The position numbers were made by a program, and so were the translations under genes. This document shows, in pieces, positions 59-4,813 of a stretch of 5,106 nt of DNA. Location of the stretch: assembly GCA_003506735.1 (NCBI GenBank), contig DNYS01000162.1, forward strand, positions 12,175-17,280, in the 5' to 3' direction. Source of the stretch: Nitrospinota bacterium (GTDB lineage Bacteria; UBA8248). Below the pieces are notes generated by a model. It did no database searches. It was not told the origin of the DNA and saw only the letters and a list, made by a program, of their open reading frames with translations. Each line of letters opens with the position of its first letter. The stretch's first letter is position 1.

Positions 59-2185
59 ATGTACAGCATCGGCATCGACATCGGCGGCACCTTCACGGAC
101 GCCGCCGTGGTGGAACGGGGGGGCAGCCGGGCGGTGCTCGCCAAGGCCCCCTCTACGCCCGGCGATTACCTCGAAGGGGTGATGGCCGCGCTCGAGGATG
201 CCGCCGCCCAGCTCGGGATCGGCCTCCGGGAGCTTCTCGGCGCGGCCGATTTGCTCGCCCACAGCACGACGGTCACCTCGAACGTCCTCTGGACGCGCTC
301 GGGTGCGCGCGTGGGGCTCATCGCCACGCGCGGGTTCGGCGACCAGATTCTCATCATGCGCGCCATCGGCCGGGTGGCGGGCCTCTCGCTCGCCGAGCGC
401 CGCCACTACCGCCGCACGGACAAGCCCCCGCCCCTCGTCCCCCGCAGCCGGATCGCCGAGGTGGCCGAGAGGGTGGATTCCGCCGGCGAGGCGATCGTAC
501 CGCTCGACGAGGCGGGCGCGCGCGAGGCCATCCGAATGCTCGTGGACGGACACGGGGCCGAGGCGCTGGCGGTGGGCCTTCTCTGGTCGTTCCGCAACCC
601 GGCGCACGAGGAGCGCCTTCGAGAGCTGGCCGCCGAGGAGGCGCCGGGCATTCCGGTAAGCCTGTCCTCGGAGATCTCCGGGCGGCTGGGCGAGTACGAG
701 CGGACGGCGACGGCGGTGCTGAACGCCTACGTGGGACGCGAGATGGCGGGCTACATCGGCCGCCTCACCGAGCGGCTGGCCTCGGCCGGGCTGGATCGCG
801 CGCCCCTCATCGTTCAATCGGACGGCGGCCTCACCCCGCCCGAGCGGGTCGTCCCGGTGCGCACGGTGGAGAGCGGCCCGGCGGCCGGGGTGGCCGGCGC
901 GGCGCGCCTCTCGGGCGAGCTCTCGAAGCCGAAACTCATCGCCACCGACGTGGGCGGCACGACCTTCAAGGTGGCCCTCGTCGAGGACGGGCGCTGGGAC
1001 CTCGCCGATGAGACCGTCATCAACCAGTACCATGTCTTCGTCCCCATGGTGGATGTGGTCTCCATCGGGGCCGGAGGCGGCTCGATCGCCTGGGAGGACG
1101 GGGGCCGGCTCCGCGTGGGACCCCGATCCGCCGGGGCGCGGCCCGGGCCCGCCTGCTACGGGGCGGGAGGGGAGGAGCCGACCGTCACCGACGCCGATCT
1201 CCTGCTGGGCGTTCTGAACCCCGAAAATTTTCTCGGCGGACGAATCGGCCTCGACCGGGAGGCCGCCCTTCGGGCCTTCGAGAAAAACGTCGCGCCCCGC
1301 TTTTTCGGGGGGGACGCCGCCGAGGCCGCCGCCGGGGTGCGCGCGATCATCGACGCCCAGATGGCCGACCTCATCCGCCGGACCACCCTGGAGCGGGGGA
1401 GCGACCCGCGTGAATTCGCCATCCTCGCCTACGGGGGCGCGGGCCCGGCCCACGCCTGCGCCTACGCCGCCGAGGCCGGCATCGGGGAGGTTATCGTCCC
1501 CTACCACGCCACCGTCCTGAGCGCGTTCGGGGCGGCGGCGGCGGGGGTCCGCTATACGCTGGAACGGTCCCTGACGGCCTTTCCGCCGGGTGGCGCGGAG
1601 ACGCTCGCCGAGGGCTTCGCCGATCTGGAGGCCGAGGGGGGCGCCATGCTCGAGCGGGCGGGGGTTGCCGCCGGGGATCGGCGCATCGAGCGCTGGTGCG
1701 CCATGCGCTGGCGGCGCCAGGTGCACAGCCTGCGCGTGCCCTTCCCGGAGGGGAAGATCGGGGCGGAAGCGCTGGAGCGGGTCTCGGCGGATTTTGGGGC
1801 CGAGTACGCCCTGCGCTACGGAGAGGGATCGGCCTACACCGAGGCCGGGATCGAGGTGACGCGGATATGGATCGACACCCGCGGGCCCTCCCTCCCCCCG
1901 CGCGATGTGCGCGCCCCGGAGAAAACCCTGTCCGCCGATCCCGAGGGCGCGCGGCGCGTCCATTGGGGGCCGGGGACCGGCTGGCGGGAGACGCCCATCT
2001 TCGGCGGCCCCGCCCTTCCGGCGGGGGCCGGAATCGAGGGGCCCGCGATCATCGAGTATCCCGGCACCACCATCGCCCTCCCGCCGGGGGCCGAGGCCCT
2101 CATCGACGAGGCCGGCCACACGCACATCCGGCTGGAGGTTGCCGCACCGCCCGCGGCCGCACCATCTACGGGAGAAGCGCCATGA
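59..2185 (+). CDS. hyuA: HyuA-type ATP-binding subunit of a hydantoinase/oxoprolinase/acetone carboxylase-family enzyme
   Basis: This 708-residue protein has the architecture of HyuA, the N-terminal half of 5-oxoprolinase and the acetone carboxylase beta subunit (AcxA). These are cytoplasmic ATP-binding subunits of the ASKHA (actin/Hsp70) fold that phosphorylate the substrate and, in carboxylases, bicarbonate. Visible landmarks are the phosphate-1 loop GIDIGGTFTD (residues 5-14), the family motif HSTTVTSNVL (68-77) followed by RGFGDQ (91-96), the SGPAAG segment (272-277), the phosphate-2 loop DVGGTTFKV (297-305), SIGAGGGSIA (335-344), the GPRSAGARPGPACYG stretch (354-368) with PTVTDAD (374-380), and AYGGAGPAHA (457-466). 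A smaller C-terminal domain ends in the GPAIIEYPGTT segment (661-671) and an Ala/Pro-rich tail. Length is normal for the family. The phosphate-2 loop has Lys304 where relatives usually have Asp. The stop overlaps the start of hyuB as ATGA, indicating translational coupling. The family is certain; the substrate (hydantoin, oxoproline-like lactam, or a ketone for carboxylation) is not. Confidence 0.93.
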   Translation: MYSIGIDIGGTFTDAAVVERGGSRAVLAKAPSTPGDYLEGVMAALEDAAAQLGIGLRELLGAADLLAHSTTVTSNVLWTRSGARVGLIATRGFGDQILIMRAIGRVAGLSLAERRHYRRTDKPPPLVPRSRIAEVAERVDSAGEAIVPLDEAGAREAIRMLVDGHGAEALAVGLLWSFRNPAHEERLRELAAEEAPGIPVSLSSEISGRLGEYERTATAVLNAYVGREMAGYIGRLTERLASAGLDRAPLIVQSDGGLTPPERVVPVRTVESGPAAGVAGAARLSGELSKPKLIATDVGGTTFKVALVEDGRWDLADETVINQYHVFVPMVDVVSIGAGGGSIAWEDGGRLRVGPRSAGARPGPACYGAGGEEPTVTDADLLLGVLNPENFLGGRIGLDREAALRAFEKNVAPRFFGGDAAEAAAGVRAIIDAQMADLIRRTTLERGSDPREFAILAYGGAGPAHACAYAAEAGIGEVIVPYHATVLSAFGAAAAGVRYTLERSLTAFPPGGAETLAEGFADLEAEGGAMLERAGVAAGDRRIERWCAMRWRRQVHSLRVPFPEGKIGAEALERVSADFGAEYALRYGEGSAYTEAGIEVTRIWIDTRGPSLPPRDVRAPEKTLSADPEGARRVHWGPGTGWRETPIFGGPALPAGAGIEGPAIIEYPGTTIALPPGAEALIDEAGHTHIRLEVAAPPAAAPSTGEAP
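2170..2174 (+). promoter_or_regulatory. Ribosome binding site of hyuB inside the 3' end of hyuA
   Basis: GGGAG lies 7 bases before the ATG at 2182, inside the last codons of hyuA. It decides the hyuB start. The same frame is open far upstream (back to about 1696), but that stretch lies inside hyuA and reads as Arg/Gly/Pro-rich shadow sequence, whereas family-like sequence begins at this ATG. Confidence 0.7.
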
Positions 2186-4335
2186 ACCCCGTCCAGTTCG
2201 AGGTCATCTGGCACCGCATCCTCCAGGTCGCCGAGGAGATGGGCATCCACTACCTGCGCTGCTCGGGCAGCCAGACGGTGGTGACCGGAAACGACGGGGC
2301 GACGGCGGTCATGCTCCCGGACGGGGGGCTGGTGGCCATCGGTCCCTACATCGCGACCCAGTCCAACGTCCTTCCGCTCATCGTCGAGAGCACCCGGCGC
2401 ACCTGCCCCGATAATCCGGGAATCGGCGAGGGCGACATTTTCATCTGCAACGACCCCTACAGCGGAGCCATCCACCACGCTGACGTGGCCGTCGTCGCGC
2501 CGATTTTCATCGAGGGAGAACTCACCGCCTGGCTCGGGGTGAGCGGCCACCAGCTCGACATCGGCGGGATGGAGGCGGGCGGTTTCGCCATCAATGCCGT
2601 GGACACCCACCAGGAGGGCCTGCGAATTCCGCCGGTCAAGATTGTCGAGGGCGGCCGGCTCCGGGAGGACATCTTCGCCTGGGTGATGAACCAGGTCCGC
2701 GATCCGCTCGTGGGCCTGGACGTGAAGGCCCAGCTCGCCGCCATCCATGTCGGCGAGCGCGGGCTGCGCCAGATTTCGGAGCGTTACGGCGCCGGGGCAC
2801 TGCGCGAGGTCATGACGGGGAGCATCGACTACGCCGAGCGGCGCTTCCGCGAGCGCCTCCGCTCGCTTCCGGACGGGGAGTGGAAGGAGGTTCAGTTTAT
2901 CGATCACGACGGGCACACGCCCGCGATCTACCGGATCGAACTCAAGCTCACCAAGGCGGACGACCGGCTCATCTTCGACTTCACGGGCACGAGCCCGAAC
3001 GCGCGCGGCCTCATCAACAGCACTTACTCGGGGCTGATCGCAGGCGTATTGTGCGGCACCTACATCCTGCTCGCCTACGACCTTCCCTGGAACCGGGGGG
3101 TTCATAACTGCATCGAGGTCATCTCCGAGCCCGGCACGGTCAACAACTGCGCCTATCCGGCCCCCTGCTCGATGGCCACCATCTCGGCCGTCATCGTCAC
3201 CATCGACACCGTATTCGGATCGGCCGCGCGGATGCTCCTGGCGAGCGAGGATCTGCGCGATGAGGCGATGAGCATGTGGACGGGCTCCTCCATGGGGCCC
3301 ATCGTCTCGGGCACCTCCCAGCACGGCCACCCCTTCGTCTACACCGAGATGAGCCACTTCGCGGGCGGGGGCGGCGCCCGCGTGGACGCCGACGGGGTGG
3401 ACACGGGCGGCATCGTCTTCAACACGACGCCGAACGTCGCCAACATCGAGGAGATCGAGGCCGATTTCCCGCTGCTCTACCTTTTCCGGCGGCATCTGGA
3501 GGATTCGGGCGGCGCGGGCCGCTTCCGGGGCGGGCGCTCGGCCGAGCTGGCCTATGTGGCCTGGCGCGCGCCGGAGGGCTTTTTGGAGGGCAGCTTCGCC
3601 GGGACGGGAGGCGAGATGCCCAACGCGGTCGGCCTCTCGGGCGGGCTGCCGGGGGCCGCCATCCGCCTCATGATGGTCTCGGAGAGCGGGGTCCACGACG
3701 CGATTGAGCGCGGGGAGATGCCTCCCGCGCGCCTGGAGGACATTCCCGGGCACCGCGAGATGCTGCCCGTCAAGCACCCCCGCCGGGCCTTCGGGCGGAA
3801 CGAGGTCTGGTACCACAACTGGCAGGGAGCGGCGGGCTACGGAGATCCCATCGCCCGCGAGCCGGGGAAGGTGGCGGAGGATCTGCGCGAGGGGGTCATC
3901 TCGGCCGATACCGCGGGGGACATTTACGGCCTCCTCCTGGATCCATCGGGCGGGGTGGATGCCGGGGGCACCGCCCGGCGGCGGGAGGAGATTCGCCGCG
4001 CGCGCCTGGGCGGGGAGCCCTGTCCCACGGGCGGGGCCGAGCTTCCCGAAGGCGCGCGCCGAATCACCGACGATCTGTGGCTGTCGGGGAGCCGGGTGTT
4101 CTGCGGGCGCTGCGGAGAAACCACCGGCGGGCCCGAAGCGCCGCTCGCCCTGGCGAAGGAGATCGAGGGGCCGCTCACCGGGGCGGGGCCCGTACGCGGG
4201 GAGGCCTATTCGGCCCTCTATGGAACCGAGCGGTTTTTCCTCATCCGCCATGTATGTCCCGGCTGCGGGACCCAGCTCGAAGCGCGCGTGGTGATGACGG
4301 GCGCGCCCAGGCCGGGCTGGCGGCTGTCCGGCTAG
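2182..4335 (+). CDS. hyuB: HyuB-type catalytic subunit fused to a C-terminal acetone carboxylase gamma-like zinc module
   Basis: This 717-residue protein is the HyuB/5-oxoprolinase C-half/acetone carboxylase alpha-type partner of the preceding HyuA. Family landmarks are GDIFICNDPYSGAIHHADV (residues 84-102), SGHQLDIGG (121-129), EGLRIPPVKI (145-154), FDFTGTSP (265-272), INSTYSG (278-284), the SGGAGRFRGG stretch (442-451) and GYGDPIAREP (552-561). In acetone carboxylase the alpha subunit holds an active-site Mn. His98/His99/Asp101 and His123/Asp126 are the likely metal ligands here, by analogy only. The usual HyuB ending is the GYGDP segment plus a short helical stretch, and it is complete by about residue 605. 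About 110 further residues follow, carrying CGRC (641-644) and CPGC (692-695), a four-cysteine zinc-ribbon pattern like that of the separate AcxC gamma subunit. The start overlaps the hyuA stop by ATGA and the product is expected to form a complex with HyuA in the cytoplasm. Annotation as acetone carboxylase alpha or as N-methylhydantoinase B are both possible; substrate unknown. Confidence 0.92.
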   Translation: MNPVQFEVIWHRILQVAEEMGIHYLRCSGSQTVVTGNDGATAVMLPDGGLVAIGPYIATQSNVLPLIVESTRRTCPDNPGIGEGDIFICNDPYSGAIHHADVAVVAPIFIEGELTAWLGVSGHQLDIGGMEAGGFAINAVDTHQEGLRIPPVKIVEGGRLREDIFAWVMNQVRDPLVGLDVKAQLAAIHVGERGLRQISERYGAGALREVMTGSIDYAERRFRERLRSLPDGEWKEVQFIDHDGHTPAIYRIELKLTKADDRLIFDFTGTSPNARGLINSTYSGLIAGVLCGTYILLAYDLPWNRGVHNCIEVISEPGTVNNCAYPAPCSMATISAVIVTIDTVFGSAARMLLASEDLRDEAMSMWTGSSMGPIVSGTSQHGHPFVYTEMSHFAGGGGARVDADGVDTGGIVFNTTPNVANIEEIEADFPLLYLFRRHLEDSGGAGRFRGGRSAELAYVAWRAPEGFLEGSFAGTGGEMPNAVGLSGGLPGAAIRLMMVSESGVHDAIERGEMPPARLEDIPGHREMLPVKHPRRAFGRNEVWYHNWQGAAGYGDPIAREPGKVAEDLREGVISADTAGDIYGLLLDPSGGVDAGGTARRREEIRRARLGGEPCPTGGAELPEGARRITDDLWLSGSRVFCGRCGETTGGPEAPLALAKEIEGPLTGAGPVRGEAYSALYGTERFFLIRHVCPGCGTQLEARVVMTGAPRPGWRLSG

Positions 4336-4390: not shown

Positions 4391-4813
4391 ATGGCCAAGC
4401 AGGTGGAATACGTGGATTGGCCGGACGCCCTGGACGTCTGGACCCCCTACACCCCCGCCGTTGCGGTGCGGGGCGGCAGGACCGTCTATTTCGCCGGGGT
4501 GACGGCGGCGGCCGTCTACCATCACCACCCCCACCGCCCCGAGGAGTTCGACGATCTGCCCGAGGACATGGAGAGCCAGACGCGGGCGGCGCTCGAGAAC
4601 TTGAGGAAAAGCCTGGAGTCGGTGGGCGCCACGTTCCGGGACGTCGTCTCGGTCGGCGTATTTCTCACCGACGCCTCCGATTCGGCCTCGGGCCGGGTCC
4701 GGCGGGAATTTTTCGGGGATCACCGCCCTGCTTCGACGACCGTCGAGGTCGTGCGCCTGGCGACCGACCCCAGATGCAAGATCGAGATCAACGCGGTGGC
4801 GGTAATCGATTGA
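4391..4813 (+). CDS. RidA/YjgF/YER057c/UK114-family protein lacking the catalytic arginine
   Basis: This 140-residue protein has the complete Rid fold pattern: an N-terminal TPY motif (Tyr20), beta strands with TVYFAGVT (31-38), the long helix QTRAALENLRKSLESVG (63-79), DVVSVGVFLTD (84-94), and the C-terminal HRPASTTVEVVRL (111-123) and KIEINAVAV (130-138). Family members are trimeric cytoplasmic proteins; archetypal RidA hydrolyses reactive 2-aminoacrylate and related enamines/imines. Compared with E. coli RidA, the Tyr17 and Glu120 equivalents are kept (Tyr20, Glu132), but Ser30 becomes Ala35, Arg105 becomes Ser115 and Cys107 becomes Thr117. Loss of the arginine places it with the non-archetypal Rid groups, for which 2-aminoacrylate deaminase activity is not expected. 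It lies 55 bases after hyuB on the same strand, so a role on an intermediate or product of the HyuAB reaction is a reasonable inference. The family assignment is firm; the reaction is unknown, so I give no gene symbol. Confidence 0.9.
   Translation: MAKQVEYVDWPDALDVWTPYTPAVAVRGGRTVYFAGVTAAAVYHHHPHRPEEFDDLPEDMESQTRAALENLRKSLESVGATFRDVVSVGVFLTDASDSASGRVRREFFGDHRPASTTVEVVRLATDPRCKIEINAVAVID

Follow-up and report, generated by a model that had tools for sequence, protein, structure and literature searches.

According to the account given in PMC5543143, in acetone carboxylase (Acx) substrate phosphorylation takes place on a kinase subunit, and a metal site about 40 Å distant is reached through a channel, the role of the gamma subunit being called not clear. 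In acetophenone carboxylase (Apc), as described in PMC5214803, the gamma subunit is wrapped around the catalytic subunit, whose C-terminal arm keeps gamma in place, and the zinc of gamma is taken as structural. PMC5214803 and PMC4959651 give rules to tell carboxylases from hydantoinases, based on the number of genes, the length of subunits, and whether gamma has a gene of its own. The stretch analyzed here (the window) spans 5,106 nucleotides of a Nitrospinota bacterium (assembly GCA_003506735.1, contig DNYS01000162.1, positions 12,175 to 17,280), and holds a HyuA-like gene followed by a HyuB-like gene. Sequence profiles, fold and related loci show that the last 95 residues or so of the window HyuB are homologous to the four-cysteine gamma subunit found in acetone and acetophenone carboxylases, here fused to the catalytic chain.

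The HyuB open reading frame (ORF; 2182-4335, plus strand) encodes 717 residues. The catalytic core (residues 1-607; 2182..4002) matches PF02538 at residues 2-556, with GYGDP at 552-556, and the NCBIfam ApcD model at residues 2-607, with a score under cut-off; the alignment with the acetophenone carboxylase delta subunit ends at residue 606-607. The same frame continues for 110 residues past the core. A weakly conserved linker, delimited in the tail alignment (residues 608-623; 4003..4050), leads to the gamma-like module (residues 624-717 plus the stop codon; 4051..4335). The cysteine pairs C641-G-R-C644 (4102..4113) and C692-P-G-C695 (4255..4266), both predicted zinc knuckles, have 47 residues between them and align with the first and the second pair, respectively, of the gamma chains 5l9w_C and 5m45_C. 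All these features are on the plus strand, and HyuB ends with a GAPRPGW tail after the second pair. A tail fused after the GYGDP segment, with the same cysteine pairs and a Pro/Trp ending, had been reported in an earlier note from position 3997 onward, corresponding to residue 606, and is confirmed here.

The relation between tail and gamma is visible only via profiles, because the single window tail has no phmmer match in the PDB at E ≤ 10. Pfam and NCBIfam scans of the window tail gave no family above cut-off, and PF08882 (Acetone_carb_G) is absent from the Pfam listing of the whole HyuB at E ≤ 10. When 12 tails (11 fused, one separate gamma) are combined in a profile, the top PDB matches are three gamma chains (5l9w_C, 2.2e-10; 5m45_C, 1.2e-5; 5svb_C, 2.3e-5), the next being a ribosomal protein (0.02). 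A profile of eight fused tails, devoid of the separate gamma member, finds 5l9w_C at 3.5e-5 (next match 0.19), and does not reach the acetone carboxylase gamma chains in the PDB at E ≤ 10. The tail matches the Apc/Acx gamma fold in the fold comparison. An hhalign comparison of the tail profile with six plasmid proteins annotated as gamma subunits of acetone carboxylase (acx-type gene order in five, Apc-type in one) gave a probability of 94.7 and an E value of 6.3e-8. The homology to carboxylase gamma proposed in the earlier note is thus borne out both by the comparison of hidden Markov models and by the fold test.

Several zinc-ribbon models score the window tail slightly above PF08882, all under cut-off, as if the tail were a generic zinc ribbon, acquired independently and similar to carboxylase gamma in the CPxCG knuckles only. 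This is extremely improbable, since profile and fold homology spans most of the domain, beyond the knuckles. The fused-tail profile scores two of the six named gammas at 21-24 bits and a third at 13.3, the best of 120 shuffled decoys and the best unrelated frame reaching 7.0 and 8.3 bits, respectively; among the remaining gammas, one scores 6.8 bits, no better than decoys, and two are not found. Furthermore, individual proteins link the two families, 6 of 8 fused relatives exceeding both the PF02538 and the PF08882 cut-off, and relatives have a separate gamma gene after HyuB, at the same place. The fold is also related to that of Yippee and cereblon, the latter binding cyclic imides and lactams. 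That the module is a small-molecule sensor recognizing the substrate is very unlikely, cereblon-like ligand binding being a weak suggestion.

The tail is a real module, not a chance read-through. It recurs in 11 of 1333 candidate proteins (E ≤ 0.01), each of them a complete HyuB with the tail fused on, 716-725 residues long. Among these, P0004 is nearly identical to the window protein, as are P0007-P0010 to one another. Among 37 candidates, the only free-standing close relative is a 78-residue fragment on a 1.2-kilobase contig. The ratio of nonsynonymous to synonymous substitution rates (dN/dS), measured between the window and four relatives, is about 0.25-0.42 in the tail and 0.14-0.20 in the core, and varies from 0.23 to 0.99 over the 16 linker codons. 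Tail-profile matches were found in 7 of 18 genomes of the same family, the window's own included. In one of the seven, G008 (locus L051), the gamma-like tail is incomplete and interrupted by an in-frame TGA, which may reflect decay or misassembly.

Both cysteine pairs are kept in 53 of 57 distinct gamma-like domains; in this count P0003, L021 and the fragment P0015 are labeled as separate by the script, P0003 and L021 being actually fused proteins. The first pair is CxC instead of CxxC in P0007-P0010, as in acetone carboxylase gamma, for which PMC5543143 gives Cys74/Cys76. Pairs are lost in the acetone-carboxylase-type loci L066 (4345-4848), L068 (4330-4830), both on plasmids (Martelella and Paracoccus, respectively), and L037, as in the cysteine-poor fused form of Rhodococcus opacus (L133). 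Zinc may be dispensable in these gamma subunits.

The fusion recurs across relatives, both in the survey and in the tree. Thirteen of 135 stretches were confirmed upon scanning named genome contigs for the tail pattern, six fused (Nitrospinota, Chloroflexi, Rhodococcus jostii, Tectomicrobia, Actinomycetota, and Gammaproteobacteria) and seven with a separate gamma-like ORF. In a survey of 386 genomes, PF08882 was found in 6 and the tail profile in 16, seven of these being of the same family. The tail-profile matches in G018, G187, G353 and G365 were discarded as likely chance, being weak and accompanied by neither HyuB nor gamma in a later scan. Phylum-centred surveys gave 1-3 genomes each, numbers which have no bearing on prevalence. 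On plasmids, fusions occur in Niveispirillum, R. pseudokoreensis, Halorientalis, Natrinema caseinilyticum and Mycobacterium branderi, besides the cysteine-poor one of R. opacus; on those of Natronosalvus, Haloterrigena and Haladaptatus a gamma gene of its own immediately follows HyuB. As to the spread of the fusion, which the earlier note proposed to survey, fused forms recur across phyla and on plasmids. The HyuB stop and the gamma start overlap by four bases in Natronosalvus and in the groundwater genome L018, and small changes could therefore fuse or split the two. For all six matches to the Rhodococcus tail the precomputed Pfam annotation lists PF02538 together with PF08882, so that the fusion architecture is visible in databases; no paper on the HyuB-gamma fusion was found among the open-licence titles, abstracts and passages covered, a search by Pfam accession included.

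A search of 366 genomes with the HyuB core only, which the tail could not influence, yielded 83 matches, scoring being limited to three places per genome. Gamma accompanies all ten matches of at least 400 bits (nine fused, one separate), the gamma match being weak (16-22 bits) in one of the nine fused, G065:C2. No gamma was detected in the 22 loci scanned (L094-L115, 1.5-kilobase flanks) out of the 73 weaker matches (≤ 241 bits).

In a 69-row HyuB tree gamma presence requires two changes, 21 of the 22 gamma-less rows being set apart together by a branch with support 100. Only L082b departs from this pattern, and it sits directly upstream of a HyuB-gamma pair. Locus L082 (3065-8000, minus strand, genome G065) features two tandem HyuB genes followed by one gamma gene, the upstream HyuB lacking its own gamma. 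The tree test rejected a strict clade of all gamma-bearing rows, which is probably an effect of the gamma-less L082b inside. Acx and Apc rows form one group (support 99), the five Acx rows a group of their own (support 100), with the window outside. Thirty-eight gamma-bearing rows, the window included, hold together at 92, outside the Acx/Apc group, which rules out the window as a fused acetone carboxylase. In an earlier 50-row tree, lacking L119 and L122, the non-Acx, non-Apc rows group together at 97. Fused and separate states require six changes among gamma-bearing rows. A single origin of the fusion was rejected under the quick tree (approximately unbiased test, p 1.8e-71; 31 fused of 46 rows), the fused group having been defined only with the tree in view, and the tree giving no direction of change between fusion and fission. 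All trees are quick, with one type of support. The 69 rows do not include L002, L012, L016, L017 (own genome), dropped for length and speed, L001, L005, L007, L013, L014 (incomplete or merged frames, never added), the near copies P0004 and P0008-P0010, and L134; 8 of the 22 loci L094-L115 entered the tree, and the partial L025 was also omitted from the 46-row test.

Superfamily membership of the window proteins is clear (PF02538, 388.7 bits, cut-off 26.8; PF01968, 274.9 bits, cut-off 22.9). Equivalog models score well below their cut-offs, 226 of 1500 bits for Apc delta (NF042976), 487 and 199 of 1000 bits for caprolactamase (NF050156 and NF050157, respectively). The tail falls outside PF08882 by its own score, and the enzyme is neither an acetone nor an acetophenone carboxylase. 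The most fitting description is a cis-gamma variant within the hydantoinase/ketone-carboxylase family that lies outside the acetone/acetophenone carboxylase group. The two-gene carboxylase/hydrolase imagined in the earlier note stands as to the fusion of gamma to the catalytic chain, and the order ATPase, catalytic, gamma is indeed that of acetone carboxylase, but the protein is not a fused acetone carboxylase; fixed 1:1 stoichiometry holds only insofar as catalytic and zinc parts are one chain.

The predicted HyuB metal ligands D38, H98, D101 and H123 correspond, in the phmmer alignment with 5l9w_A, to Asp65, His123, Asp126 and His148, named as Apc metal ligands in PMC5214803, and are invariant across a 15-row alignment. 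D38 aligns with Apc Asp65; the Acx alignment stops short of Glu89, the switchable metal ligand of Acx. HyuA, the ATPase/kinase-like subunit (708 residues; 59..2185, plus strand; Pfam Hydant_A_N, Hydantoinase_A, Hydant_A_C), retains the adenosine triphosphate (ATP) motifs upon a check of motif positions. These are the phosphate motifs DIGGTFTD (residue 7) and DVGGT (297), the adenosine motif GARPGP (359), and AERVDSAG (136), their meanings being those given in parts of PMC8453981 and PMC5214803.

The module, with one predicted zinc, would clamp the HyuB core in cis, by analogy with the separate gamma acting in trans. Its function would be structural, holding the C-terminal arm of HyuB and fixing a 1:1 ratio. 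HyuA likely phosphorylates a carbonyl substrate with ATP, and the activated substrate would probably move to the HyuB metal site. Carboxylation with bicarbonate at this site is given somewhat better than an even chance, hydrolysis a little less than an even one. One HyuA match was found at each of the 16 fused loci with HyuA in view (flank lengths differ); as there is a single HyuA and no second kinase subunit, any carboxylation would require ketone and bicarbonate to be activated one after the other by the same ATPase, a scheme which PMC5214803 argues for acetone carboxylase, instead of by two ATPases like in acetophenone carboxylase. Taken as a whole, the explanation (gamma homologue in the HyuB tail, cis clamping, one zinc, HyuA activation, likely carboxylation) is considered quite probable.

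Several observations weigh against it. The window tail alone scores 11.7 bits against PF08882 (cut-off 21), so that the Acetone_carb_G match anticipated in the earlier note exists at the profile level and not for the single sequence. Cysteines are lost in one fused (L133) and three separate gamma-like domains. Two fused rows, L119 and L122, stand apart in the 69-row tree, a single third branch being unsupported. The best NCBIfam model for the window HyuA is caprolactamase alpha, a RidA-like gene (4391-4813; PF01042 match) lies downstream of HyuB, and no gene activating substrates with coenzyme A (CoA) was recognized beside the window pair or same-family loci, no family search being made. The last three points also speak for an ATP-dependent amide, lactam or hydantoin hydrolase, in which the gamma-like module would be no more than a structural brace kept by inheritance and irrelevant to the reaction; a hydrolase would also fit the core metal ligands and the HyuA motifs, which hydrolases and carboxylases have in common. 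Such an enzyme is a serious possibility, judged somewhat below even, since the window HyuB groups with the gamma-bearing rows in the tree, PMC5214803 describes all Hyd complexes as lacking gamma, and acyl-CoA genes are found near 6 of 8 annotated gamma-bearing plasmid loci vs. 0 of 6 gamma-less ones. Tree position and neighbour genes make carboxylation likelier than hydrolysis.

The neighbour count is small and post hoc. Ligases, thiolase, acyl-CoA dehydrogenase, enoyl-CoA hydratase and CoA transferase were counted as acyl-CoA genes, in 15 of 30 listed plasmid records (136 matched), over 7-kilobase flanks (5 for L123; the record end is near L133); L118 (no annotation) and the Acx-/Apc-type loci L063-L068 were omitted. 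Acyl-CoA genes reside near L116, L117, L119, L121, L122 and L133, not near L120 and L123, nor near the gamma-less L131, L132 and L134-L137. L133 had been drawn as a control and was moved to the gamma side for a tail match of 15 bits; the count becomes 5 of 7 vs. 0 of 6 if it is excluded. A DSD1-family pyridoxal phosphate enzyme or alanine racemase directly follows HyuB in 3 of 6 gamma-less loci (L132, L134, L137). Transporter genes are found near both gamma-bearing and gamma-less loci, RidA near one of each (L119, L135). In two haloarchaeal plasmids, L120 and L122, 2,3-butanediol dehydrogenase genes are near HyuAB-gamma, adjoined in L120 by genes for dihydrolipoyl dehydrogenase and acetyltransferase. 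These neighbours may hint at substrates resembling acetoin.

In the window's own branch neighbours were judged by reading predicted proteins, without family search. On this basis a conserved operon was rejected, an upstream sugar-phosphate-isomerase-like gene recurring in L022 only, and the RidA-like gene was not seen beside HyuB in the other same-family loci viewed. The HyuA stop and the HyuB start overlap in an ATGA (2182..2185, plus strand), and the two genes therefore likely form a single transcriptional unit. Hydantoinase_B is matched at 17 places in genome G000 (3.8 Mb, incomplete); the gamma-like tail profile matched the window copy only, 12 of 46 first-look candidates being scored. A short ORF at the contig end (4854-5105, minus strand) reads VVDPPGAEVFVDSRYYG, which we take to resemble a PEGA-type repeat.

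Widespread gamma-bearing relatives named hydantoinase are likely carboxylase-like rather than true hydantoinases. Many long-tailed "N-methylhydantoinase B" proteins might even represent a third class of ATP-dependent, biotin-free carboxylases, found in bacteria and haloarchaea, with a gamma repeatedly fused or split, a proposal which is tentative and falls just on the doubtful side; the class would have been hidden because gamma, used as the carboxylase mark, was sought only in the form of a separate gene. None of the three published rules works with a fused gamma, as there are two genes, like in hydantoinases, no separate gamma gene, and a HyuB of about 720 residues, like the acetone carboxylase subunit, but with the extra length being gamma itself. 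Counting the fusion would shift a set of "hydantoinase B" proteins to the carboxylase-like side. Single-chain enzymes would allow the role of gamma to be tested by simple truncation, and cysteine loss in 4 of 57 gamma-like domains provides natural tests of zinc importance.

Among known systems, the best sequence-profile and fold match to the window tail is the Apc gamma of Aromatoleum aromaticum (apcB, PDB 5l9w chain C). Both have four cysteines in two knuckles, with 49 residues between pairs (Cys25-Cys75) in Apc vs. 47 in the window, and in the crystal the HyuB-like subunit holds Apc gamma in the embrace of its C-terminal arm, as reported in PMC5214803. Yet Apc gamma is a separate protein of 129 residues, extending past the last cysteine well beyond the 22 residues of the window tail, and the Apc complex has two kinase subunits (alpha, alpha'), whereas one HyuA is found beside the window HyuB. 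AcxC (PF08882; PDB 5svb/5m45/5svc chain C) has the same fold and cysteine spacing as the window tail, and its genes the same order (kinase, catalytic, gamma), but it is a separate protein of 168 residues with a longer N-terminal part and a C-terminal helix touching the kinase subunit, the window tail being too short for both. Caprolactamase CapAB and hydantoinase HyuAB are encoded by two-gene operons, with metal-site and ATP motifs as in the window; unlike the window they lack gamma, CapB and 20 of 21 other gamma-less HyuB rows lying across the branch with support 100. Hydantoinase HydAB similarly has no gamma in the accounts of PMC5214803 and PMC4959651, in contrast to the window with its gamma-like module. 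Rhodococcus acetovanillone carboxylase HpeCBA was dropped as a characterized relative, being biotin-dependent according to PMC9618137. The same core-plus-gamma fusion as in the window is found in the Rhodococcus-type HyuB (L024 of R. jostii, P0016-P0021), where named annotated as hydantoinase B/oxoprolinase or N-methylhydantoinase B; these belong to another subbranch, and L024 is about 33% identical to the window protein.
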